Shown here in pieces: positions 13,695-31,471 of a stretch of 60,977 nucleotides of DNA. Each line of letters opens with the position of its first letter. Within the stretch, counting starts at the first letter, position 1. The translations under genes and the position numbers were made by a program. Origin of the DNA: a virus; IMG/VR virus record IMGVR_UViG_3300042346_000439, positions 1 through 60,977 of that record; one strand, 5' to 3'. The notes below the pieces were generated by a model. That model searched no databases. It worked only from the letters and a program-made list of their open reading frames with translations, and was not told where the DNA came from.

Positions 13695-14288
13695 TTATAC
13701 TGTTGCTGTTGCTGAGTCTGGCGCAGATGCGTCTTGGCCAGCCAATGAAGTATTACCAACATCTAGATAGTGATATTGGAATGTAACAGTAAACTCTTGA
13801 ATTGCATCTGTAGTGTCATAAGATAAATCAATAGCAGAAACATCAGTTGGAAACGCATCATACAATTTATATACTCTAGCGACTGTGCCATCTGGTCTTA
13901 ACTGATTCACAGTAATAGTAGAACGGTATGTATCTTCGCTATCTACTCTCAAATCTTCCTCTCCATCAGGATCGACAATGCTTTTTAGCCAATTGTCAAA
14001 AGTTTTACGAATGTTTTGGTTACCATCGTTAACAAATGTTGCTGTCCAATCTCCGTATGTTCTGTCACCAGGAATTTTAATGCGTCTTCCTCTGAATGGA
14101 ACTTCAATAACACCTAGTGTAAATGCTGGAATTGCACCAGATTTACACAAAACAGAAAAATTGGCCGCATCTAGATCAACACCGTCTATATCATCATTGA
14201 GTTCAATGTCCATACGAAATAAATTTGCTTTTGATCCGCCATTTAGTTTTTCTCTAAATGTATTGATATTGAAAAATTCGGTTGTCAT
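13695..14288 (-). CDS. 19: gp19 tail tube protein (copy A)
   Basis: 197 residues. It shows the T4 tail-tube pattern: ANLFRMDIEL at the N-terminus, FSVLCKSGAIPAFTLGVIEVP, the signature IKIPGDRTYGDWTATFVND, and the C-terminal YDAFPTDVSAIDLSYDTTD then EFTVTFQYHYL. Hexamers stack to make the inner tube through which DNA passes. It carries an extra Ala/Ser/Asp-rich tail of about 20 residues after the conserved end. It is adjacent to a second tube-like gene, and together they follow the sheath gene gp18. The gene is followed by the terminator at 13616. Confidence 0.9.
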   Translation of the reverse strand: MTTEFFNINTFREKLNGGSKANLFRMDIELNDDIDGVDLDAANFSVLCKSGAIPAFTLGVIEVPFRGRRIKIPGDRTYGDWTATFVNDGNQNIRKTFDNWLKSIVDPDGEEDLRVDSEDTYRSTITVNQLRPDGTVARVYKLYDAFPTDVSAIDLSYDTTDAIQEFTVTFQYHYLDVGNTSLAGQDASAPDSATATV

Positions 14289-14298
14289 TTTTTATTCC

Positions 14299-14835
14299 TT
14301 ATTCGAATGTAAAGTAGTCGTAAGACCAAGTTACAGTAAACTCTTCGAGAGTGTCTGTAGAGTCATAAGACAGATCAATAGTGCTGATATCTTGTGGCCA
14401 ACAGTTGTTCAGCGTATATGAATATATCGAATTGCCTGCTTGATCTAGTTGTTCAACTAAAATAGTAGAAAAGTCCGTTTGAGTTCCACCAGTTCTAGTT
14501 TTAGAAATTGTTGAATTGTAATCAGTAGTTCCATAAACTTTTTGTAGGTTTTCTAATGCTTCTCTAATTTGGTGATTAGAATCATTAATGACTGTTGTTG
14601 TCCAGTCAGCAAATGTTCTGTCTCCAGGCGCTTTATATCTTCTGCCGGCTGAAAATGGAACTTCAATAATACCTAAAGTTGAGCCAGGCAGTTGGGCTGC
14701 CTTGCACAAAAAACTAAAATCTTCATCTTCAGATGTAGTTGTACTATAAAATCCATTTAATGTAACTTTAAACAGATTTGAACGAGCGCCACTATTAAGG
14801 GCGGTTTTCAAATCGCTAATTGTTGTAATTGCCAT
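14299..14835 (-). CDS. gp19-like tail tube protein (copy B)
   Basis: 178 residues, clearly paralogous to its neighbour: SNLFKVTLNG, FLCKAAQLPGSTLGIIEVPF, YKAPGDRTFADWTTTVINDS and the ending WPQDISTIDLSYDSTDTLEEFTV are in the same order. T4 has one gp19. The second copy may be the main tube protein with the other as a minor ring, or the tube may be mixed. Copy B has a compact ending like T4 gp19, which makes it the better candidate for the major tube subunit. It has its own late promoter elements. Confidence 0.88.
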   Translation of the reverse strand: MAITTISDLKTALNSGARSNLFKVTLNGFYSTTTSEDEDFSFLCKAAQLPGSTLGIIEVPFSAGRRYKAPGDRTFADWTTTVINDSNHQIREALENLQKVYGTTDYNSTISKTRTGGTQTDFSTILVEQLDQAGNSIYSYTLNNCWPQDISTIDLSYDSTDTLEEFTVTWSYDYFTFE

Positions 14836-20441: not shown

Positions 20442-21191
20442 TTAGCCTAGCATGTCAGTAACAGGTAGAGAATACGTGCTAATGACTTCTGCTTCTAATG
20501 CTTGAATTTCATCTGTAGCTTCATCCCAGATTTTCTGTCCGTTAAACGTAATACCACCTGGCATAGAAAGTCCCTCAAACTTTTTAAGGTTTTCACCCCA
20601 TTGTTTTTTGATTTGTGCGGTACAATACTTCTGCAAGAATCTATCATTGTATACATCTGTGAATGTGTCAGGATCAATCTTCTGATATCCTTCGATGATA
20701 ATGAATTCACCAATAGTTACTTTTGTGTCCCAAGACATGTCAATGTAAACTCTGTTGATGTGGCGATTGAATCTGAGGGATTGTTTACCCACAAACAGTT
20801 CTTCTGCCATTGCAACGTTTTGAAATGCCATGTAGTATGGCGCAAACGGACCAGTATTGAATGAATACAAATCATTCAAAGAAATCTGATATCTCAAATT
20901 GAAAAGATTGTTTGTAGAATAACTGTCGCCAATGTCAAAGATATTCATAACACCAATGACAGAATCTGGTAATGTGATGTATTTGTTTGTTATGTCATCT
21001 TGCGTGACTGCGTGTGCTAGATAGACTTTTTCCGTTGCGTCATAGTGGTAATCGTAGTAATATTGAAATGCAATCTCAATGCAGTCTTCAACTTGTTCGT
21101 CAGCTACGTTTATCTCTAAGAGAGGCGCACCTAGTCTTCTAAGGCAGAATTGCTTAAATTCTTCTCTTGTTGCTGGTTTGCTTGTACTCAT
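20442..21191 (-). CDS. 13: gp13 neck protein
   Basis: 249 residues (T4 309). Typical stretches: FCLRRLGAPLLEINVADEQV, then IEIAFQYYYDYHYD, ITLPDSVIGVMNIF, RHINRVYIDMSWD and the region GEFIIIEGYQKIDPD. gp13 is a neck component acting with gp14. It is the first gene of the minus-strand neck/terminase operon, just downstream of a late-type promoter and next to the plus-strand accessory island. Confidence 0.93.
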   Translation of the reverse strand: MSTSKPATREEFKQFCLRRLGAPLLEINVADEQVEDCIEIAFQYYYDYHYDATEKVYLAHAVTQDDITNKYITLPDSVIGVMNIFDIGDSYSTNNLFNLRYQISLNDLYSFNTGPFAPYYMAFQNVAMAEELFVGKQSLRFNRHINRVYIDMSWDTKVTIGEFIIIEGYQKIDPDTFTDVYNDRFLQKYCTAQIKKQWGENLKKFEGLSMPGGITFNGQKIWDEATDEIQALEAEVISTYSLPVTDMLG

Positions 21192-21256: not shown

Positions 21257-21285
21257 TTGATTTAATGTGCTAAATAAAGTATAAT
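21257..21285 (+). promoter_or_regulatory. Host sigma70-type promoter for the plus-strand sugar genes
   Basis: TTGATT (21257-21262), a 17-base spacer and a perfect TATAAT (21280-21285) precede the cupin gene by about 20 bases. This is an early-type promoter inside a late structural region. A GCAC-N10-GTGC inverted repeat (21253-21270) overlaps the -35 box and could be an operator. Confidence 0.8.
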
Positions 21286-21306
21286 GTTATAAGCGAGGTG
21301 AATAAT

Positions 21307-21678
21307 ATGGAAAGACTAGAAGGTTTTGTGAAAAAGGGTTGGGGTCACGAATTGATTTGGGCTACCAACGATAAGTATTGCGGCAAATTGATGAAGTTCA
21401 ATAAAGGCGCAAAATTCAGTATGCACTTCCATGCTGAAAAAGATGAATCTTGGTATGTGTTAGATGGTTTATTTATGATTAAATTCATTGAGACTAAAGA
21501 CGCAAGTATGCATGACGTAACGCTGAAAGCTGGAGAAGTTTGGCGTAATCGTCCTCTACAACCACATCAAGTTATTTGCCTAGAAGAAGGCACAATCATA
21601 GAAGTCTCCACACCAGATAGTGTTCAAGATAATTATCGTGTTCTGCCTGGAGATAGTCAGCAGAGCAAGGAACAATAA
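21307..21678 (+). CDS. Small cupin protein, sugar-isomerase type
   Basis: About 123 residues. A single cupin barrel with the metal-binding pattern MHFHAEKDESWYV, then a PHQV histidine, preceded by KGWGHELIW as in mannose-6-phosphate isomerase-type II/WbuC-like cupins. The likely role is sugar phosphate isomerisation or binding in nucleotide-sugar metabolism; the substrate cannot be read from sequence. ATG at 21307 is chosen because GAGGTG lies at the right distance before it; a GTG at 21298 falls inside that ribosome-binding site. It overlaps the epimerase gene by TAATG, so the two are translated together. Confidence 0.8.
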   Translation: MERLEGFVKKGWGHELIWATNDKYCGKLMKFNKGAKFSMHFHAEKDESWYVLDGLFMIKFIETKDASMHDVTLKAGEVWRNRPLQPHQVICLEEGTIIEVSTPDSVQDNYRVLPGDSQQSKEQ

Positions 21679-22592
21679 TGATACTGGTTACTGGCGGATT
21701 TGGATTCATTGGATCAAATTTAATTAGAGCATTAAATGCAAGAGGCATATCAGAAATCATAGTTGTTGATGATTTGACTGATGGCAATAAGATGATGAAT
21801 CTAAACGGCACAACGTTTGGTGATTATTATGATGTTGATTCATTTTTTGATACATTCTCTGATTGGGATAGTGTCAAGTTTATTTTCCATGAAGGTGCAA
21901 TTTCTTCTACTAGAGAAACAAATGGTACTTTGTTAATGAAAAGAAATTATGAATTCTCAGAAAAACTTTTGAGAAAATCGTTTGAACATAAGATACCTTT
22001 TCAATATGCATCTAGTGCAAGTGTTTACGGTGACATGCCCGCAAACTTCAGAGTGCCAGAATCTGCTTCAATGTATCCACAAACACCATATGCATTTTCT
22101 AAATATATGTTTGACAAAAAAATTATTAAATTGATGGAGTCAGAATACTCTAGTAAGTTTGAATTCAACATTCAAGGGCTAAGATACTTCAATGTTTATG
22201 GCGAAAATGAATTGCATAAGAAAGATCAAGCAAGCCCAATCACCAAGTTTACTATTCAAGCAAGAGAAACAGGAAAAATAAAATTATTCTCTGGCTCAGA
22301 AAGTATATTCAGAGATTTCGTTTGTGTTGAAGATATTGTACAAGCCAAAATAGAATTAGCATTCAACAAAATGAATAGTGGAATTTTTAATTTGGGCACA
22401 GGTGCACCAGAATCTTTTGCTAGAGTTGCTGAAATTATTGCACAGAGAGAAAATGCTAAAGTTGAAACTGTTCCTTTTCCAAAAGAGTATCAAACAAAAT
22501 ATCAATATTGGACGTGTGCTGACATGACTAAATTAAGAGATGCAGGAATTAAAACGCATTTCAGAAGTATAAATGAATTTTTTAAGATTTGA
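21678..22592 (+). CDS. hldD: HldD-like ADP-L-glycero-D-manno-heptose 6-epimerase
   Basis: 304 residues (E. coli HldD 310). Extended SDR epimerase: NAD-binding TGGFGFIGSN (5-14), the heptose-epimerase signature FHEGAISST (70-78), SSASVYGD, the catalytic YxxxK (Y138, K142) and the RYFNVYGENELHKK stretch with the lysine that aligns with K178 of HldD. The C-terminal IFNLGTGAPESF also matches. It would convert ADP-D-glycero- to ADP-L-glycero-D-manno-heptose, the donor for LPS inner core. It sits between the cupin and a GmhB-like protein, so the three form a heptose cassette. Other epimerase substrates cannot be fully excluded. Confidence 0.85.
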   Translation: MILVTGGFGFIGSNLIRALNARGISEIIVVDDLTDGNKMMNLNGTTFGDYYDVDSFFDTFSDWDSVKFIFHEGAISSTRETNGTLLMKRNYEFSEKLLRKSFEHKIPFQYASSASVYGDMPANFRVPESASMYPQTPYAFSKYMFDKKIIKLMESEYSSKFEFNIQGLRYFNVYGENELHKKDQASPITKFTIQARETGKIKLFSGSESIFRDFVCVEDIVQAKIELAFNKMNSGIFNLGTGAPESFARVAEIIAQRENAKVETVPFPKEYQTKYQYWTCADMTKLRDAGIKTHFRSINEFFKI

Positions 22593-22604
22593 GAGGATTT
22601 AACA

Positions 22605-23303
22605 ATGGGAAGATTTTCAATAGATAGAAGCATGAACGTTGGTGGTCAACCACCATCACCTACTATGCCACAGATGCAACCGTACGGACAACAAAACTAT
22701 AGTTCACCATATGGCCAACAAATGCCTCAGCAACAGCAAAACTGGCCAACTTATTTTCCTAAAGAAACAATTGGTATTGATAGAGGTGTAATTTTAAATG
22801 ACACTAAACCTATTATTAATCCATCTGATATAGAAATACTTCCTGGTGCATTAGATGCAATTCGTACTATTCGTCTAAAAGGATATAAACTTGTCATATT
22901 CTTTAATGAACCCCTAATCAGTCAAGGTAAATTAACTACTCAAGCAGTAGATTCTAATGTTCAACAGTTGATGAATTATTTTGGTCAAGCTGGAATCTTT
23001 ACAATTGACGGACTTCTATATGCAACATCCAACATGAAAGAAGATTTGTTTGCAATGCCAAACAATGGTATGATGAAACGTGCTGAGAATGATATGAAAG
23101 TTGCATTCAAGGGTGGATACTTTGCAGGCAACAAATTATATAATCTGAAAGCTGGCGACTCTGTACATGCAAAACCTATTCTAATTAAATCTCCTGGTTA
23201 TGAAGATGTAGAGTCTAAACTAGATACATTTGCAAATAAGGAGTTAAAGAATAAAACAAAGACGTTTAACTCTCTACTAGATTTTGCAAATTCTCTTGCA
23301 TAA
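22605..23303 (+). CDS. Degenerate HAD phosphatase-like protein (GmhB-type) with Gln/Pro-rich head
   Basis: 232 residues. Residues 1-52 are low-complexity Gln/Pro/Tyr/Met. The rest follows the heptose-bisphosphate phosphatase layout: ILPGALDAIRTIRLKGYKLVIFFNEP corresponds to the FIDG..AM..LK..GF.LVVVTNQSG region, then QGKLTTQAVD and a FTIDGLLYATSN stretch. The catalytic DxDG motif is reduced to GIDRG (D59), so the second Asp is missing, and the GD-K/D motif is AGNK. It is probably catalytically dead or has a different role. It ends at a bidirectional terminator. The family call is by pattern; the loss of motifs is directly visible. Confidence 0.7.
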   Translation: MGRFSIDRSMNVGGQPPSPTMPQMQPYGQQNYSSPYGQQMPQQQQNWPTYFPKETIGIDRGVILNDTKPIINPSDIEILPGALDAIRTIRLKGYKLVIFFNEPLISQGKLTTQAVDSNVQQLMNYFGQAGIFTIDGLLYATSNMKEDLFAMPNNGMMKRAENDMKVAFKGGYFAGNKLYNLKAGDSVHAKPILIKSPGYEDVESKLDTFANKELKNKTKTFNSLLDFANSLA

Positions 23304-23304
23304 C

Positions 23305-23330
23305 AAAAAAGCCCCAAAAGGGGCTTTTTT
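23305..23330. terminator. Bidirectional terminator between converging gene sets
   Basis: A perfect 11-base stem (AAAAAAGCCCC / GGGGCTTTTTT) with an AAAA loop carries T-runs in both directions. It lies between the plus-strand HAD gene and the minus-strand carbamoyltransferase and serves both. Its last base is also the first base of the complemented carbamoyltransferase stop. Confidence 0.93.
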
Positions 23331-25102
23331 TATTCTTCAGTTGCTGTTTCTGTTTCAACTTCTTCAGCTTCAACTTTCTCTGTTGGATCATCAATTGTCT
23401 TTTCGACAAGAACACCTAACTCAGGCAAGTAGATATATTTTAGTTTAGAACTAAAGATTGTCATCAATGCATCTTGTAGTGTCTCAACTAAAGGATGACC
23501 AGCAAGATTGAATGAAGTATTGAAGATAACTGGAACACCAGTAATGTCTTTGTATGCCTTAATCAATTCATAGTAATGCTTGTTGTTCTCTTCAGAAACA
23601 GTTTGCACACGACAAGTTTCATCAACGTGTGTAACACACGGAATCTCACTCACTTTGTCTGCGGCAACATTAACTGCATACATCATAAATGGAGACTCTT
23701 CAAGTCCAGCCATGTCAAACCAATCGTTTGCGTCTTCTAGCAAGACAGAGCCTGCAAATGGTCTAAACCATTCACGACCTTTGACAAGATTAACTTTGTC
23801 TTTACCTTCTGGATCTCTTGAATCATAAAGAATAGAACGATTACCCAATGCACGAGGACCAGCTTCAGAACGACCTTGAAAGATCGAAACAATATTTTTA
23901 TCAGCAATCAATTGTGCAACTTCTTCTTTTGTAGTAGGAGTTACTTTGATTGCTTCTTTGTTTGCGTCTAAGATATACTCAAGCAATTCTTTTGAATACT
24001 CAGGTCCGTAATAGATGCTTTTCTGTGGGCGAACTGTACTATCATTTTGTGAAGTGTGCCAAGAAAGTTTTGCAACACCAATTGCAGTACCAGCATCATT
24101 TGCGACTGGTTCAACATAAATGTTTAAATGTGGAAAACGTTTCTTTAAGTAATAGTTTGCAACGCAATTCAAACCATAACCACCAGCGATAACAATATTT
24201 TCTACTTTTGTAGCTTGAACTGCAAGTTCAATGTAGTCACCAATTATCTGTTGCGTATCATTTTGAATATGCCAAGCAAGATTCTTTTCAACAGTTGTTA
24301 ATTTTTCAGAGTCTTTATGCCAATCTCTTGGATCTGCATATTGTCTTAGATATGGAAATCTTCCTTGGTCGATGTAAGCACCCGCTGGATATGCAGGAAT
24401 GAAAACATCTTTTGAACCCCTATTACCATTAAACAATCTAGGAATATTGTCATCATACTTACCATATGGTGCAAGTCCCATTGTCTTACCTGCTTCGATA
24501 AAACCAAAGCCTAAGTACTGAGATACTGCTTCGTATGCTTTAGTAACAGTTGTTGCGCCACCATCAAAATCAAATACTCCAGTATCGACTTTTGGTCCGG
24601 CATTGTTACCATAAACTTTTCGCACTAAAGCAAATTTGCCTGGATATTCACAATGCCAAATCGATTCTGTTTCATATCCTTCGGCTGTGATAGTTTCATT
24701 CTTCTCATCCACTTTTTCTTTTTTGAGTGAACCAGCACCATCTACAATAAGTGCAATTGCTGTTTCAAATCCAGAATTGTAAAATGCAGATGCGGCATGA
24801 CCCAAGTGATGTTCATTTCCAAGTCTTTGTACTTTTACATTAGGATAGAATTTGCGAACAAGCGCAGTATACGCATCTTCACCTGTCCACGGAAGTTTAT
24901 GTTCTTCTTGTCCAGTACCAGCAATGACAAGTTCATCAACGTGCCATTTCTGCATAATGTCTAACATGCCTCTGAATGGATTACCATCATACTTAGCACG
25001 ACTTAATCTTTCTTCTTCAACATAGTATACAACTTCACCATCAACTAGTAATGCCGCAGAACCATTATGACCAGGATTGATACCTAAAATATTATAACTC
25101 AT
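23330..25102 (-). CDS. NodU/CmcH-family carbamoyltransferase
   Basis: 590 residues. N-terminal ASKHA-type domain with GINPGHNGSAALLVDGEVV and EEERLSRAKYDG, metal-binding histidines in NEHHLGHA (96-103), a DGAGS loop (121-125), then GGYGLNCVANY. The C-terminal carbamoyltransferase domain has SEAGPRALGNRSIL and FNTSFNLAGHPLVETLQDA. The family transfers a carbamoyl group from carbamoyl phosphate to a hydroxyl, usually on a sugar. The last 25 residues are an acidic tail. It is transcribed with the glycosyltransferase-like gene from a host-type promoter; the acceptor is probably the sugar made or attached by its neighbours, which is an inference. Confidence 0.92.
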   Translation of the reverse strand: MSYNILGINPGHNGSAALLVDGEVVYYVEEERLSRAKYDGNPFRGMLDIMQKWHVDELVIAGTGQEEHKLPWTGEDAYTALVRKFYPNVKVQRLGNEHHLGHAASAFYNSGFETAIALIVDGAGSLKKEKVDEKNETITAEGYETESIWHCEYPGKFALVRKVYGNNAGPKVDTGVFDFDGGATTVTKAYEAVSQYLGFGFIEAGKTMGLAPYGKYDDNIPRLFNGNRGSKDVFIPAYPAGAYIDQGRFPYLRQYADPRDWHKDSEKLTTVEKNLAWHIQNDTQQIIGDYIELAVQATKVENIVIAGGYGLNCVANYYLKKRFPHLNIYVEPVANDAGTAIGVAKLSWHTSQNDSTVRPQKSIYYGPEYSKELLEYILDANKEAIKVTPTTKEEVAQLIADKNIVSIFQGRSEAGPRALGNRSILYDSRDPEGKDKVNLVKGREWFRPFAGSVLLEDANDWFDMAGLEESPFMMYAVNVAADKVSEIPCVTHVDETCRVQTVSEENNKHYYELIKAYKDITGVPVIFNTSFNLAGHPLVETLQDALMTIFSSKLKYIYLPELGVLVEKTIDDPTEKVEAEEVETETATEE

Positions 25103-25103
25103 A

Positions 25104-26042
25104 TTATTTTCCTACCTTCTTCTCTATATCTTTAACAATTGAAATAAACAACTCGTCTACATCTTTATCAGATAAATCCATGCACTTGTCATTGTATCTA
25201 TCTGCTAAGTGTGAATCTAAACCAGAAATACGAATTGGAGAGTATTTCTTTTCGACTCCAGGTCGTTCGTAAATATTGAACCAATCTGGATATGAAACGT
25301 TCTTTGCGAATGTGGATCCGATGAAAACAGTTCCTGGCTTATTAAACGCTCTTGCCATATGCTGTCCGACAGAATCACAACCAACAAAATAATCAGCCGC
25401 TTCAATAACAGCAGACCATGACCTTAAATCTATTTCAGGTTTAAAGGTGAAGTTATCATCTGGCTGGTGAAATGGTTTCTCTGCAAACAAAATAAGATTG
25501 TACTTTGTTGAAAGTTTTCTAACTAAACGTAAGTATGCGTGTGAATCAAGACCTCTAGATGAATCATCGATAATGTCAGCACGATCAACTCTTGCACTTC
25601 TACCATAAGGTTGAATCACAAGTGTCTTGTCTTTTTTCTGTTGCATCTTTATGTCTGCAATCATATTAGCGGCATTCTTTTCTTCTGCTTTGCTAGTGTA
25701 CAACTTGAGTGGAGGTAAATCAGAATGGTCATGTGTGCCATTGATTTCAATGTCGAACGCTTCCGCTAGAGATACTTTTTGATTATAGTACTCTGGAACT
25801 TTATATGGTTCTGGGCTGATGTGTTTGTCTGCGCCTTTAATGACTAGATCAAAGATACCTTTTGTATCTGCACTAAATGTGATATCTTGAAGCAGTTGAT
25901 TGCCCCAATATAAATTGTCCCATCCCATGACAATAATTTTTATGTCATCTTCTGGTTTTTTGTTTCTAACTAATTTTTCAAGTGCTGGTAGTGCCGCAAT
26001 TGCTCTTCCTGCACCACCGTCAATATAAATTACTTTTTTCAT
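25104..26042 (-). CDS. GT9 (heptosyltransferase-family) glycosyltransferase-like protein
   Basis: 312 residues. GT-B fold layout: N-terminal YIDGGAGRAIAALPALEKL, middle LVIQPYGRSARVDR (start of the C-terminal domain), and the donor-site signature AADYFVGCDSVGQHMARAFNKPGTVFIGST, equivalent to the D..iG.DSg..HlA.al..P motif of ADP-heptose:LPS heptosyltransferases. Its product is consistent with the HldD-like enzyme encoded opposite it. It precedes the carbamoyltransferase by 1 base. The likely target is host LPS core or a phage glycan; which one cannot be told from sequence. Confidence 0.78.
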   Translation of the reverse strand: MKKVIYIDGGAGRAIAALPALEKLVRNKKPEDDIKIIVMGWDNLYWGNQLLQDITFSADTKGIFDLVIKGADKHISPEPYKVPEYYNQKVSLAEAFDIEINGTHDHSDLPPLKLYTSKAEEKNAANMIADIKMQQKKDKTLVIQPYGRSARVDRADIIDDSSRGLDSHAYLRLVRKLSTKYNLILFAEKPFHQPDDNFTFKPEIDLRSWSAVIEAADYFVGCDSVGQHMARAFNKPGTVFIGSTFAKNVSYPDWFNIYERPGVEKKYSPIRISGLDSHLADRYNDKCMDLSDKDVDELFISIVKDIEKKVGK

Positions 26043-26090
26043 ATTATCTCATAATCCTTTCAAGATGAATAGTGTTACTTCACATCAAAC

Positions 26091-26119
26091 ACTATACTAT
26101 ATATAACTCAATTTGTCAA
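26091..26119 (-). promoter_or_regulatory. Consensus host sigma70 promoter for the glycosyltransferase-carbamoyltransferase pair
   Basis: On the minus strand: a perfect TTGACA -35 (26114-26119), a 17-base spacer, and TATAGT as -10 (26091-26096), followed 49 bases later by the ATG with an AAAGGA ribosome-binding site. This is the strongest host-type promoter in the window and points to early expression. Confidence 0.88.
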
Positions 26120-26136: not shown

Positions 26137-26553
26137 TTATGTTGGCCAAGCAAGTGATGGTAATTCAGATTCAATTTCAGAAAAATTTACAATCTTTTCT
26201 CTTCTACCATCAGTTGCATCATCGATGATTTGGTACAATGCAGACCAAGTGCTATCTCTAGCAGTAGCGGCATATGTACCCTCATTCTTATATTTTGTTA
26301 CTGACGAACTTATATATGTCGTTGCAGAATTGATATTTTCATATCCTCTTGTTTGTGCGAATGTGTCCAATCTTCTTTGTGTTTCTATTTCAAGATATGG
26401 AAGCATTGGTAAGTCTAGAACACCATTAATATATGTATATTCGAATGCTCTAGACTCAACAAAGTCTGATGGAGAAGAAACCCATTGCTGAGGTCCTTCA
26501 TATCCATCAAATGTTGTTGCTATAACACGATTATTTTCTACGATAAGTTTCAT
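26137..26553 (-). CDS. Tail fibre assembly chaperone-like protein
   Basis: 138 residues. The C-terminal half has the pattern RRLDTFAQTRGYENINSATTY, then TKYKNEGTYAATARDSTW, common to phage fibre-assembly proteins and DUF4376-type proteins. It lies 13 bases downstream of the 1392-residue cysteine-rich fibre, the usual place for its dedicated chaperone. It has no cysteines, in contrast to its neighbour. The next minus-strand element is the host promoter at 26091, so this gene ends the fibre operon. Confidence 0.75.
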   Translation of the reverse strand: MKLIVENNRVIATTFDGYEGPQQWVSSPSDFVESRAFEYTYINGVLDLPMLPYLEIETQRRLDTFAQTRGYENINSATTYISSSVTKYKNEGTYAATARDSTWSALYQIIDDATDGRREKIVNFSEIESELPSLAWPT

Positions 26554-26566
26554 ATGTTAATTCACG

Positions 26567-29500
26567 TTATAGATTATAGAACATATCTATTTTGGTAAAC
26601 ATCAAACAGCAAGAACATCCGGACACAGTACCGCTTGGATTACCATTTGCAAAGAATCCACCACCACCAGAGGCAGAACATCTATATGGAGTCAAATCAA
26701 AATATGCAATGTGTACGCTATTTTGAGTATTTAATGGTGCTCCAGAACCTCTTGTTTGAGTTGCAGGCATCACCTCATAACAAAGGGAATCTACGGCAAA
26801 GTATGTTGAATTACATGCACTATAAAGTTGAAATCCTGATCTCTTACGATGATCTTGGGCGGCAAAACAGAGGCAGTTGCAACAGAAACATGTATCAGCA
26901 CAAGAAACTCTTATATCCATCATATATTGTGCATTCCAATATGATTTACATGGTCTATAATTGCAAGAGTTACATGCGCCCCATGAAGGAACACCACTTG
27001 ATATAAAATCAAACCACAAACAATTAGGGCCAGCTTGATTGCACGTTCTCATAAGTCTATCATAAGGAATCATTCTACAACATGTGCGACTGTCAGAAAA
27101 ACAACATCCAGTGTAGGCACCGCCCGCAATGCATGAGCCACATGCCTGATGTACGCAAACAAGCATTGCACATTGAAACGTTGAATTATTGTTCGCCACA
27201 ACTTTAAAATGATTGCCTATTCCACAACATCCCACAAAGGCCGCACAGCAACGGCGTGGTGGTGTCTGACAGCATGGATAGTGAGTATCAATCTGATTAA
27301 CACACACATGTTGTGCGGTGAAACCGTTGGCTCTAGTAAAATTACATACTGGATGGTCAGCCGAGTAAGTGCCGCCACAAACGCCGGTTTGACAACAAAG
27401 CACAATATTACAGGCAGGGCAACAAGGAGAACATGGTACACTCAAACAGCAATTAGGACCAAAACACTCACATGCTCTATTAAAGCAGTATGGCCCTTCC
27501 AAACAAAAATCTTTGTGTGGTGCTATGAGATAACAGAAGTTGAACGTTTCATCAAACGTTGTCATGTCTTGACTACAGTTTTTGGGAGTATAAACTGCCG
27601 CAAAGCAACCTGGGTGCGGCCCGGTTGCGCCGAAGAGGTGGTGTGCTACAACGATTCCGATAGAATTTGCGTTTCCAGGATTACATTGATGAAAAAAGCG
27701 GTTATCACATTCGGCTGTGGACGCATGGCAACAGCAACCGGCATTGCCAAAATGACATAGCTGAAATGCATCACCTATATCTATAACACAAAATATACTC
27801 TTGTCTGATCTAACAATATTACTGCCAGTAGGTGCCGGAGAAACATAGCAAGTAGTGTTCTGATAATCGGCATGAGCACAATTAGGCCTACATGCAATCA
27901 TTGGAGGCATGTTAGGAAATGCTGGGACTGAATATACTGAATTTGATGAACCATAAAAATTAACTGTCTTCAAGCCAGCTTCATCGGAAAGAATTGCGGC
28001 CGCAAAGTGATGGCGCTGTCCAGCATGTCCCATGCACTGGCAAACTCCTGAATTACAACAAAAACATCTGCCAGAACAATAAGAGCAATGAAAAACTTGA
28101 TTACATATTGTACTATCGTAGCCTCTACTATTTGGAGTTTGATGATACATAGACTCAAAACAGCACACAATTGTTCCAACAACACCATCTGTATTAAATA
28201 CTGTTGTGTGTCCGGTTTGTCCTAATGCGTTTTGGCATCCAAAATTCCCTCCAATGTGAGCGCCTTCTGATGTGCCTACGGCGGTGCTACCAGAGGTACC
28301 GTCACAACTGGCACAACATGCACACATAGTCATTACTGGAGGATATGCTCCAGATAACACAAGTCTACATCCAATTATTTTAGCATTTGCAAAAGTAAAG
28401 TTTGTCCAAGAACATGCACTACCACCAATCGCTAAAGCGTTAGTACAATCAAGTTCTGTTCCTTGCATTGTATTATTTGCTTGAGAGCCATAGCACCAGA
28501 CGTTCACACCAGGTGTATTTCTAAAATATCCACAGCCGCCTACTGTGCCTTCGGCTTGGCCACGGCATGTACAACAATTGTAATAATGGAATTGGTCTCG
28601 GGCACCTAGCATCGTGCAAGTGGCGATGGAGCCACCAGCGGTACCGCCATATAACATTGCAAATGATCTCCAGCCAACAAGGAATGCTTTAGAATCCGCT
28701 TGATTGTTTGGGTTTTTATAAATTAATGTGTGAGATGCCGCAGTTGGGTTAATCATGTGTCTCAGGATCGAACATGTGTCTGTGCAGGTAACGTGAGGAG
28801 CCTGGCACAGACAGTATGGAAGCGTTCCTGATCCATGCCCTTGAAAATAATCTTCATAACATCTGCCGTAAATACAATGTGTGGCCGCTGGCAATGACAG
28901 ACATGCATTACAGCATGTACATGGAGTAAAACATGCTAAACCAGCAGGTGTATTTCGAACAAAATGGTCGCAACTAATTCTAACGCAACCTCCAACTTTA
29001 CCAAAAGAGAACATCATAGCATATTGCCCAGCTTCTTGGCAACATAATTGATTTTCAATTCCTAATGTGGTTTGATATCCATCAGTTCTCATTGGGCTTA
29101 CGCCAGCAAAGTACTCATCACAGAATGCAACTGTATAGAATGGCAACGGAACATCTGGAAAGTGAGTCCAAGATGCAGTATTTGGTTGACTGTTGGCAAA
29201 CAGACACATTCTTGAGTGCCCAGTTTTGAAATATGCTGGACCACAGACACCAGAGGCACCATTATTAGTAGCGCAATCAGTAATAATCCAACCAGTGTAT
29301 ACGTAGTTGCAACATGCAAAAGTACTTAACGCATATCTAACTGTAAATTGACAGCAAACATTTCCACAAAGTTGTTGGAAAATACATGCTGGAAGAGGCA
29401 CACAAAGGCGATTGAATGTAGCCGCATTGTCTGTTGTATAATACAATCCACAATTCAATGTCAAACCAGATGTGTTTGCAGTTGTTCTGTCCAAAGAACA

Positions 29501-30745
29501 TGTATAGCAAGTTCTAAAACATGCAATAGCACTACTTTGATTCCAGAATCCTGGAGAAATCATCGTAAATCTACAGTCTGCGTGTGTAATAACGTTATAG
29601 TTACACTTGATGAATCGACCTAGATATTCTACTTCAGTATTTGAAAGTTGAGATCCATTTGCAATTGTCATTGGACATTGTCTAAACCCACCGCATGGAA
29701 AATATAAATGTGGAGCATTAGGATCGTTTTCGACATAGCATCCACGACCGATAACGTCGGACTTGATTATACGGTGCCCATATTGCTCGAGGCCAGATCC
29801 GAGGCTGCCGCAAGGACATATGGGGTTTGAACCAGTCAATGTGGTACAAAAGCAAAAAAGACATGCTCTTTGTCTATTGCTACCAAAAGAAGCGAAGCAA
29901 TCCATGAAATACGTATTTCCTGACTCAAGAAATTTAGCCATACAACAAATACCAAAGGAAGTATTAGACCATCTAGCAAAATTACAGCTTGTTTCGTTTT
30001 CGCCACATGCGCCTTTAGTGATAATTTCGTTTGTTGCACACACTAATCTAGTGTATGTATTTGCTGGCTCGGACAGAGCGAAAATACAACATTGAAAAGC
30101 CGCAGTACACATCACACATGCAACATCTCTATTGAGAGTGTCTGTAAATCCGCTGGTGCAAAGTGCAGTACTTAAACCAGATGCAGTCAAACAACCAAGT
30201 GCAGTTGCATCACTTAACCAAAATGCCGCACGACCTGCAGTTCCAACGGCTTCTTTTATTGAACATGCAGTACCTCTAAAACATGCAGATACACACGAAT
30301 TGCACGTTAACATCTTAGTAATATCTGAGTTTGATGATACTGCGGTAGCTAAAAATGCTGTGTTACTAGCAAATGCACAGTTAATCATACATGGTGTATT
30401 ACCAAAGTGATTGAACGCATTAGTTGCCTCTGGTGTTGAAAAACTCATCATGTAGTTGTAGTAACAAGAAGACCCCAACATATCATCTCTACTATTAGTA
30501 GTTTGATAGAATATGCATGATCCAATTGGATTTGCAAACAATGCAGTCATCGCATTATTAGAACGAACTAGAGTGTGTGCCGCAGTATTTGATTGCGCCA
30601 ACGCACATGAATATTGTGGAGAACTTAGCACCTGTGTTACATCGGCTAATCGTCCACCATCGGATAGCAAAGTATCAAGACAGCCGGGTGTTGTATTCCC
30701 TGTCGATATTGCATTTAAAACTCGTATACCTCTTACCACTGGCAT
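26567..30745 (-). CDS. Giant cysteine-rich tail fibre / adhesin
   Basis: 1392 residues with about 145 cysteines by hand count (about 10 percent) and more than twenty CC pairs, spread over the whole length. It is also rich in Asn, Ser, Thr, Gly, Ala and Phe and very poor in Lys and Glu. The N-terminus (PVVRGIRVLNAISTGNT, then GCLDTLLSDGGRL) and the S-x-x-A-x-x-x-x repeats of the first 120 residues resemble phage fibre N-termini. No enzyme motif or signal peptide is seen. A GGGGAG ribosome-binding site and two exact late promoters precede it, and a fibre chaperone follows. The open frame of 4.2 kb and context support a real gene. Disulfides or metal binding are possible; the role as receptor-binding protein is inferred. 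Confidence 0.85.
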   Translation of the reverse strand: MPVVRGIRVLNAISTGNTTPGCLDTLLSDGGRLADVTQVLSSPQYSCALAQSNTAAHTLVRSNNAMTALFANPIGSCIFYQTTNSRDDMLGSSCYYNYMMSFSTPEATNAFNHFGNTPCMINCAFASNTAFLATAVSSNSDITKMLTCNSCVSACFRGTACSIKEAVGTAGRAAFWLSDATALGCLTASGLSTALCTSGFTDTLNRDVACVMCTAAFQCCIFALSEPANTYTRLVCATNEIITKGACGENETSCNFARWSNTSFGICCMAKFLESGNTYFMDCFASFGSNRQRACLFCFCTTLTGSNPICPCGSLGSGLEQYGHRIIKSDVIGRGCYVENDPNAPHLYFPCGGFRQCPMTIANGSQLSNTEVEYLGRFIKCNYNVITHADCRFTMISPGFWNQSSAIACFRTCYTCSLDRTTANTSGLTLNCGLYYTTDNAATFNRLCVPLPACIFQQLCGNVCCQFTVRYALSTFACCNYVYTGWIITDCATNNGASGVCGPAYFKTGHSRMCLFANSQPNTASWTHFPDVPLPFYTVAFCDEYFAGVSPMRTDGYQTTLGIENQLCCQEAGQYAMMFSFGKVGGCVRISCDHFVRNTPAGLACFTPCTCCNACLSLPAATHCIYGRCYEDYFQGHGSGTLPYCLCQAPHVTCTDTCSILRHMINPTAASHTLIYKNPNNQADSKAFLVGWRSFAMLYGGTAGGSIATCTMLGARDQFHYYNCCTCRGQAEGTVGGCGYFRNTPGVNVWCYGSQANNTMQGTELDCTNALAIGGSACSWTNFTFANAKIIGCRLVLSGAYPPVMTMCACCASCDGTSGSTAVGTSEGAHIGGNFGCQNALGQTGHTTVFNTDGVVGTIVCCFESMYHQTPNSRGYDSTICNQVFHCSYCSGRCFCCNSGVCQCMGHAGQRHHFAAAILSDEAGLKTVNFYGSSNSVYSVPAFPNMPPMIACRPNCAHADYQNTTCYVSPAPTGSNIVRSDKSIFCVIDIGDAFQLCHFGNAGCCCHASTAECDNRFFHQCNPGNANSIGIVVAHHLFGATGPHPGCFAAVYTPKNCSQDMTTFDETFNFCYLIAPHKDFCLEGPYCFNRACECFGPNCCLSVPCSPCCPACNIVLCCQTGVCGGTYSADHPVCNFTRANGFTAQHVCVNQIDTHYPCCQTPPRRCCAAFVGCCGIGNHFKVVANNNSTFQCAMLVCVHQACGSCIAGGAYTGCCFSDSRTCCRMIPYDRLMRTCNQAGPNCLWFDFISSGVPSWGACNSCNYRPCKSYWNAQYMMDIRVSCADTCFCCNCLCFAAQDHRKRSGFQLYSACNSTYFAVDSLCYEVMPATQTRGSGAPLNTQNSVHIAYFDLTPYRCSASGGGGFFANGNPSGTVSGCSCCLMFTKIDMFYNL

Positions 30746-30790: not shown

Positions 30791-30798
30791 TATTTATA
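30791..30798 (-). promoter_or_regulatory. Late promoter (TATAAATA) for the cysteine-rich fibre, distal
   Basis: A second exact TATAAATA 14 bases further upstream, overlapping the stop codon of the gene at 30794. Tandem late promoters suggest strong expression. Confidence 0.85.
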
Positions 30799-31471
30799 CC
30801 TTCTGAACATGAATTTTCCACTTGCATACGTTTGCATAGCAAGTTCCGCATATGCTTGCAGATGGGCTACATGGACCGCTTGCACAAACAGATGGGCCGC
30901 CCCACGCAACAATACACCACGCCGGATCACAATATCGCATAAAGACTTGACCACCAAAAGATCCGCCACATACTGCATATATTTCTACAACATCGCTTTG
31001 AACTGCACCTGGCAGAGAAACACATTGACATGCAAATGTACAAGGTGAAACACCAGCAAATTGATTCACAACTTCAAGGCTGTAGTTTCCGCCATTTGGT
31101 TCAAAGGCATTGAATGCTTCAATTGTATCCCAAATAGGTGCAGAGAGAAGCCAAGCACCATTTGATGTTCTGAATGATGTTTCATCGTCATCTGGTTCAT
31201 CGGAAGCCAAACTGAATGAAAAGTATCCTAAATTTTCTACGAATGCTTGTGATCCGTTTGTTGGTGTTGTGGCTCTAAGGTCATTTCTGCTATCATACGC
31301 ATAATTGGTAATAGCATCAACTGCACCCCAAGTTGAGGGTTGCCCTGTGCCTTGGGATTTTAAAACTTGCCCTGTTGTTCCTTGCCCACCAGACACCAAT
31401 GAAATAGAGCATACGTTTGCTAGATTTCTTGTGTCATCAATGACTGTACAACTGCCGACTTTAATTGCCAT
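30794..31471 (-). CDS. Second cysteine-rich fibre protein
   Basis: 225 residues. The N-terminal 50 residues (MAIKVGSCTVIDDTRNLANV, then GTTGQVLKSQGTGQPSTWG) are a typical phage fibre attachment/shaft start. Residues about 50-135 form a cysteine-free beta domain. The last 85 residues hold 11 cysteines (for example SPCTFACQCV, SVCASGPCSP, SICGTCYANVCKW). It is directly upstream of the giant cysteine-rich fibre and has its own late promoter. A shared cysteine-rich chemistry suggests the two proteins form one adhesin; this is inference from neighbourhood and composition. Confidence 0.8.
   Translation of the reverse strand: MAIKVGSCTVIDDTRNLANVCSISLVSGGQGTTGQVLKSQGTGQPSTWGAVDAITNYAYDSRNDLRATTPTNGSQAFVENLGYFSFSLASDEPDDDETSFRTSNGAWLLSAPIWDTIEAFNAFEPNGGNYSLEVVNQFAGVSPCTFACQCVSLPGAVQSDVVEIYAVCGGSFGGQVFMRYCDPAWCIVAWGGPSVCASGPCSPSASICGTCYANVCKWKIHVQKV

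Follow-up and report, generated by a model that had tools for sequence, protein, structure and literature searches.

A phage sugar-gene cassette that may decorate a neighbouring cysteine-rich fibre with carbamoylated heptose

On balance, we judge it somewhat likely that five sugar genes beside the fibre genes of a T4-like phage form a cassette for decorating the neighbouring receptor-binding fibre with carbamoylated heptose, most likely on its cysteine residues. Decoration of the phage's own fibre is favoured because the cassette adjoins cysteine-rich fibres across many otherwise unrelated phages. The sugar is predicted to be a carbamoylated heptose because the cassette combines an HldD equivalog, a glycosyltransferase with the GT9 heptosyltransferase fold (hereafter GT9) and a TobZ-type carbamoyltransferase (CT), and because HldE is present in its fuller relatives.

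Organization of the locus

The window, by which we mean the whole 60 977-nucleotide stretch of viral DNA analysed (IMG/VR record IMGVR_UViG_3300042346_000439, positions 1–60 977), covers part of the genome of a T4-like freshwater phage; portal, capsid, terminase, sheath, baseplate and gp32 genes were recognised in it. Its terminase is closest, among cultured phages, to that of Methylophilales phage Melnitz (51%). Two neighbouring tail-tube genes (phrog_45; 13695–14288 and 14299–14835) are an apparent duplication. A sequence-only reading of the window had described five sugar genes in two converging units with a common bidirectional terminator, inserted between gp13 and the fibre cluster. This layout is present as described: five intact ORFs occupy 21298–26042, and the gene calls place them between gp13 (20442–21191; phrog_211) and a fibre block that begins past 26137. 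The plus-strand unit encodes a cupin (21298–21678; PF07883 above cut-off; phrog_7851), for which ATG at 21307 is a likelier start codon than GTG at 21298, an HldD-like protein of the ADP-heptose 6-epimerase type (21678–22592) and a GmhB-derived HAD protein with a Pro/Gln-rich N-terminal tail (22605–23303). The minus-strand unit encodes GT9 (25104–26042), of the phage family phrog_8954, and a NodU/TobZ-type CT (23330–25102). A bidirectional intrinsic terminator hairpin (23305–23330) lies between the two units and is common to both.

The adjoining fibre (26567–30745, minus strand) has 145 cysteines among its 1392 residues (10.4%), a richness that the sequence-only reading missed, and is the proposed acceptor. 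A second Cys-enriched protein of the fibre cluster (30794–31471, minus strand; 225 residues) has 5.8% Cys; no other window ORF of the examined set exceeds 2.4%. Between the fibre and GT9 lies a gene for a small protein (26137–26553, minus strand) that gave no Pfam match of its own. Its positional counterpart in locus L009 matches PF16778 (Phage_tail_APC), and by position the product is probably a fibre-assembly chaperone.

Distribution of the cassette

A map of homologous loci, run as a refutation test of the proposed gene set, shows that the genes travel together. All five are found in the same place in seven IMG/VR loci (L002–L006, L010 and L009, the last with a diverged and short HldD); L007 is without HldD, and L008, L011 and L012 hold subsets of the five. 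A scan with a GT9 profile gave 80 loci, and a CT scan gave 62 new ones, each with GT9 nearby. The wider family comprises more than 70 distinct loci, and in 65 of the 72 dereplicated loci the CT gene comes immediately after GT9. Hld genes cluster behind the GT9–CT pair, and larger versions gain the HldE kinase and adenylyltransferase, HldD and the cupin. All five window genes, including the catalytically dead GmhB-like one, are under purifying selection (dN/dS of about 0.04–0.21). Between the window and L002 the dS of the cassette (0.14–0.83) is far below that of the flanking gp13 (1.65) and fibre (1.23), which argues for exchange of the module between phages.

The cultured cyanophages P-SSM2 and S-CAM1 carry a similar block, with homologues of GT9, CT, cupin and HldD, close to their fibres and in S-CAM1 also near gp13. 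Unlike the window, they encode parts of HldE, and the place of GmhB is taken by a short HAD-like protein. Their genes are annotated as hypothetical, 'cysteine dioxygenase' and so on, and we found no record or paper that links them to Cys-rich fibres; cyanophages have been described as carrying LPS clusters of unknown role (PMC3037559). Two of the public names in P-SSM2 and S-CAM1 (L014:17915–18596 and L015:12765–13425), 'phosphoheptose isomerase' for the short HAD-like protein and 'cysteine dioxygenase' for the cupin, are probably misleading. The P-SSM2 'phosphoheptose isomerase' was considered as a GmhA and rejected; the L013 relative instead has a HAD-like DxDGT motif.

Association with cysteine-rich fibres

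The association was quantified, after dereplication, on GT9+CT loci that have 3 kb or more of upstream sequence, scoring ORFs of at least 140 residues and at least 6% Cys. Such an ORF lies upstream in 47 of 67 GT9+CT loci, compared with none of 53 control loci, which were gp13 loci of related phages without GT9 or CT. The whole records of seven related phages without GT9, with 649 ORFs in about 840 kb, gave no ORF of at least 6% Cys. Two apparent exceptions, L216 and L219, have Cys-rich fibres 11–13 kb away, and the control L109 has a GT9 elsewhere in its record, 6 kb from an RCC1-like protein with 4.2% Cys. Cys-rich ORFs in the jumbo record G004 looked spurious on reading and were excluded from the counts.

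About a quarter of the GT9+CT loci show just 0–6% Cys, even in fragments of up to 68 kb; these are chiefly one GT9 subclade with sulfotransferase genes. The association is phylogenetically structured, with about five changes in Cys richness on the GT9 tree, so a locus-level Fisher p value overstates independence, and the independent weight of the association comes from fibre families and phage types that are unrelated. When cysteines are masked, about 40 homology groups can be distinguished among the Cys-rich proteins; the common feature is therefore the cassette rather than a single fibre family, and Cys richness arose repeatedly. More distant GT9 homologues (27–30% identity) in Vibrio N4-like phages and Aeromonas phage HJ05 adjoin fibres with 2.3–4.4% Cys.

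The window fibre matched nothing among cultured phages, in Pfam or in PHROGs, and its cysteines have no clear periodicity. A related, prevalent family of Cys-rich tips gave a weak model (pLDDT 57), with best matches to phage tail tips and a fibre of cyanophage Pam3. Few low-Cys homologues of the T4-like Cys-rich fibres were found, mostly as short N-terminal matches, and homology between the Gly-rich tips of S-CAM1 and P-RSM4 was not detectable. Our search of the open-access literature found nothing on Cys-rich fibres.

Supply of the heptose donor

The HldD-like protein is a TIGR02197 equivalog (301.1 bits against a cut-off of 274.6), and alignment to PDB entry 1eq2 shows that it retains the catalytic Ser, the Tyr-x3-Lys motif and the distal Lys. 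The cupin accompanies HldE in 24 of 24 loci and HldD in 26 of 27, and is probably a sugar-phosphate isomerase. In the loci read we recognised no GmhA gene, so the cupin may be the missing heptose-phosphate isomerase, replacing GmhA.

The GmhB-like protein had been called degenerate, and its catalytic residues have indeed been lost. It departs from HAD motifs I–IV, with a D-MN pattern where DDKD is expected: the acid/base Asp is gone, TNQ has become FNE, Lys has become Met and GDKLED has become GNKLYN. An MGRF start and a Pro/Gln-rich linker ahead of the HAD domain (22605–22745) are conserved in many GmhB relatives. The HAD catalytic residues are intact in every cluster bearing both HldE activities. 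Most clusters in which no HldE is seen have a catalytically broken copy, as the window does, and with a single exception such copies are confined to these clusters; the exception (L041) has the kinase part only (Fisher p = 5 × 10⁻⁵ on related and hence non-independent loci). This pattern is coherent with upstream steps of the pathway having passed to the host and the dead protein having gained another conserved role. L007 has a truncated intact-type GmhB copy beside the degenerate one; there, the degenerate GmhB, a match to the gp13 N-terminus and the truncated copy follow in succession (L007:11792–13527), marking a rearrangement that took place between gp13 and the cassette.

The HldE kinase/adenylyltransferase is absent from the locus in the window, which is part of a genome. 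Since neither HldE nor GmhA nor an active GmhB was seen, the window genes alone could not make ADP-heptose. The earlier proposal that the five genes make and attach a carbamoylated heptose stands as to the predicted product, with the set itself being incomplete. ADP-heptose would come from the host in the window phage, and from phage HldE, GmhB, HldD and cupin in the fuller relatives.

Regulatory elements

Each unit had been credited with a consensus early-type host promoter. Both sigma-70-type motifs are present: TTGATT-17-TATAAT ahead of the cupin unit (21257–21285, plus strand; 10/12) and TTGACA-17-TATAGT ahead of the GT9–CT unit (26119–26091, minus strand; 11/12). The number of promoter-like matches in the region is at chance level (40, compared with 42.5 in shuffled sequence, s.d. 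6.3), so motif counts were dropped as evidence and conservation was used instead. In an alignment of eight sequences (the window, L002–L007 and L010) both −35/−10 pairs are retained despite variable surrounding bases. The hairpin is retained in L002–L008 and L010, with compensatory changes in the stem. The cupin promoter overlaps a late-type CTAAATA, which resembles the NATAAATA late motif that precedes many late genes in the window; since the late-type TGCTAAATAAA sits immediately 5′ of its −10 box, this promoter may be usable late as well. Upstream of GT9 we looked for a T4-type late motif and found none, only the host-type site, and early expression of the GT9–CT unit is plausible from these motifs.

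The transferases and the acceptor

A sequence profile of GT9 gave no meaningful match in the PDB even at E ≤ 10, and a fold search was therefore adopted. Against PF01075 the protein scores 16.1 bits, below the gathering score of 22, and only over the donor-site stretch. The GT9 model (pLDDT 93) has a GT-B fold of the WaaC/WaaF type; its matches (Z of 24–20, WaaC included) are led by the GT9 protein 3tov (Z = 24.2), followed by WaaF (22.2) and TibC (about 21). As modelled, the fold is about as close to that of the LPS heptosyltransferases as to that of TibC, a protein heptosyltransferase, and cannot separate acceptor types. An invariant GGAGR in the family puts Arg13 where, by motif, the catalytic base (Asp13 of WaaC, Asp110 of TibC) would be expected.

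For the CT both Pfam domains pass their cut-offs (PF16861, 199 bits; PF02543, 102 bits). Residues H98, H102, D121 and D336, invariant in the family, align to the TobZ metal site, which we take to be H114, H118, D137 and D338. The CT is accordingly of the TobZ type and is predicted from its sequence to transfer carbamoyl to a sugar hydroxyl. We propose that GT9 would move heptose onto many sites of the adjacent Cys-rich fibre, most likely cysteine side chains, and that the CT would then O-carbamoylate the fibre-borne sugar.

The main rival, which we consider unlikely, is that GT9 adds heptose to the host LPS core and the CT caps it, so that superinfection is blocked or progeny are kept from re-adsorbing to debris. 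WaaC and WaaF build LPS, and it is their fold that GT9 has; the GT9 unit has a sigma-70-type promoter, and in other phages receptor-modifying genes adjoin receptor-binding genes, as P22 gtr adjoins the tailspike. Pseudomonas LPS bears a 7-O-carbamoyl-heptose made by the carbamoyltransferase WapO (PMC8005017), which resembles the proposed CT in working on heptose but belongs to a chromosomal LPS cluster and has LPS as acceptor, whereas the window cassette adjoins virion genes. Modification of LPS would, however, leave the Cys-rich fibres unexplained. It also fits poorly with a GT9 family that is essentially viral: in 84,980 bacterial and archaeal genomes it occurs at only nine loci, every one of them on a MAG contig, and those of full length lie in phage-like DNA, each adjoining a Cys-rich ORF. 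An LPS target is moreover less natural for the full cassettes of cyanophages, because cyanobacterial LPS generally lacks heptose (PMC4515613). Of the two uses suggested by the sequence-only reading, decoration of the virion is thus favoured and alteration of host LPS disfavoured. Loci L240–L247 have the cassette and fibres on MAG contigs labelled archaea, Gammaproteobacteria, Rhodobacteraceae and others, probably misbinned phage DNA, and one phage record (L208, G018) has two GT9-family genes ∼54 kb apart.

It is improbable, in our view, that the Cys-rich fibres are simply stabilised by disulfides or metal, the cassette being merely linked to them in a mobile module and acting elsewhere. Some cysteines, such as those in CCC motifs, are strongly conserved inside one tip family, and the dS differences indicate that phages exchange the cassette as a unit. 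Linkage alone would nevertheless hardly bring the cassette together with about 40 groups of fibres in three types of phage. Homologous domains have 10–11 cysteines in Vibrio phage SBP1 compared with 0–1 in Vibrio phages D63 and 1.004.O, both absent from the GT9 matches listed, and the SBP1 cysteines align mostly with polar or charged residues of the low-Cys homologues, thus standing in for surface-like residues.

HypF, a relative of TobZ, S-carbamoylates HypE, and Cys-rich fibres adjoin the CT; the CT might in the same way carbamoylate fibre thiols directly, with the sugar genes serving another step. This is very improbable given that CT-positive regions of cyanophages P-RSM4 and S-RIM44 without GT9 have fibres with 0–1% Cys, whereas in Vibrio and Aeromonas phages GT9 adjoins Cys-enriched fibres even without CT: the constant partner of Cys-rich fibres is GT9, not CT. 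Phage glycosyltransferases often modify DNA, but we give almost no credence to a DNA target here, as no base-modifying enzyme was seen linked to the cassette (in a window that is part of a genome) and the GT9 fold and the position by the fibres point elsewhere.

Decoration of the fibre has points against it too: the low-Cys quarter of the loci, a fold that is blind to the acceptor, the Arg at the predicted base, and cysteines that could serve disulfides or metal.

Comparison with known systems

TibC is a protein Ser-heptosyltransferase that acts on adhesins (PMC4358343). TibC and AAH (the BAHTs) have a GT9-like fold in common with the phage enzyme (Z = 21) and themselves use ADP-heptose as donor and adhesins as acceptors; they modify Ser and have a four-Cys iron finger, whereas the window GT9 has only two cysteines. 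Mycobacteriophages also encode glycosyltransferases that act on virion proteins, there on capsid and tail-tube C-termini. To our knowledge, neither heptose nor carbamoyl has been reported for mycobacteriophage virions, and we know of no carbamoyltransferase in BAHT systems. The SunS-type S-glycosyltransferases of glycocins, which would have the proposed Cys linkage in common with the phage GT9, belong to a different GT family and act on small peptides with other sugars.

More broadly, and tentatively, the phrog_8954 family could consist of phage S-glycosyltransferases that add heptose to dozens of fibre cysteines, with a dedicated CT capping the sugars, as a general armouring of aquatic-phage virions for which Cys richness evolved many times. 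If fibre decoration is right, it would give a function to a gene set that has been annotated for more than a decade in cyanophages and would explain why some phage fibres contain 10% Cys. It would also represent a phage protein modification, a carbamoylated heptose with a probable S-linkage, located on the host-recognising part of the virion.
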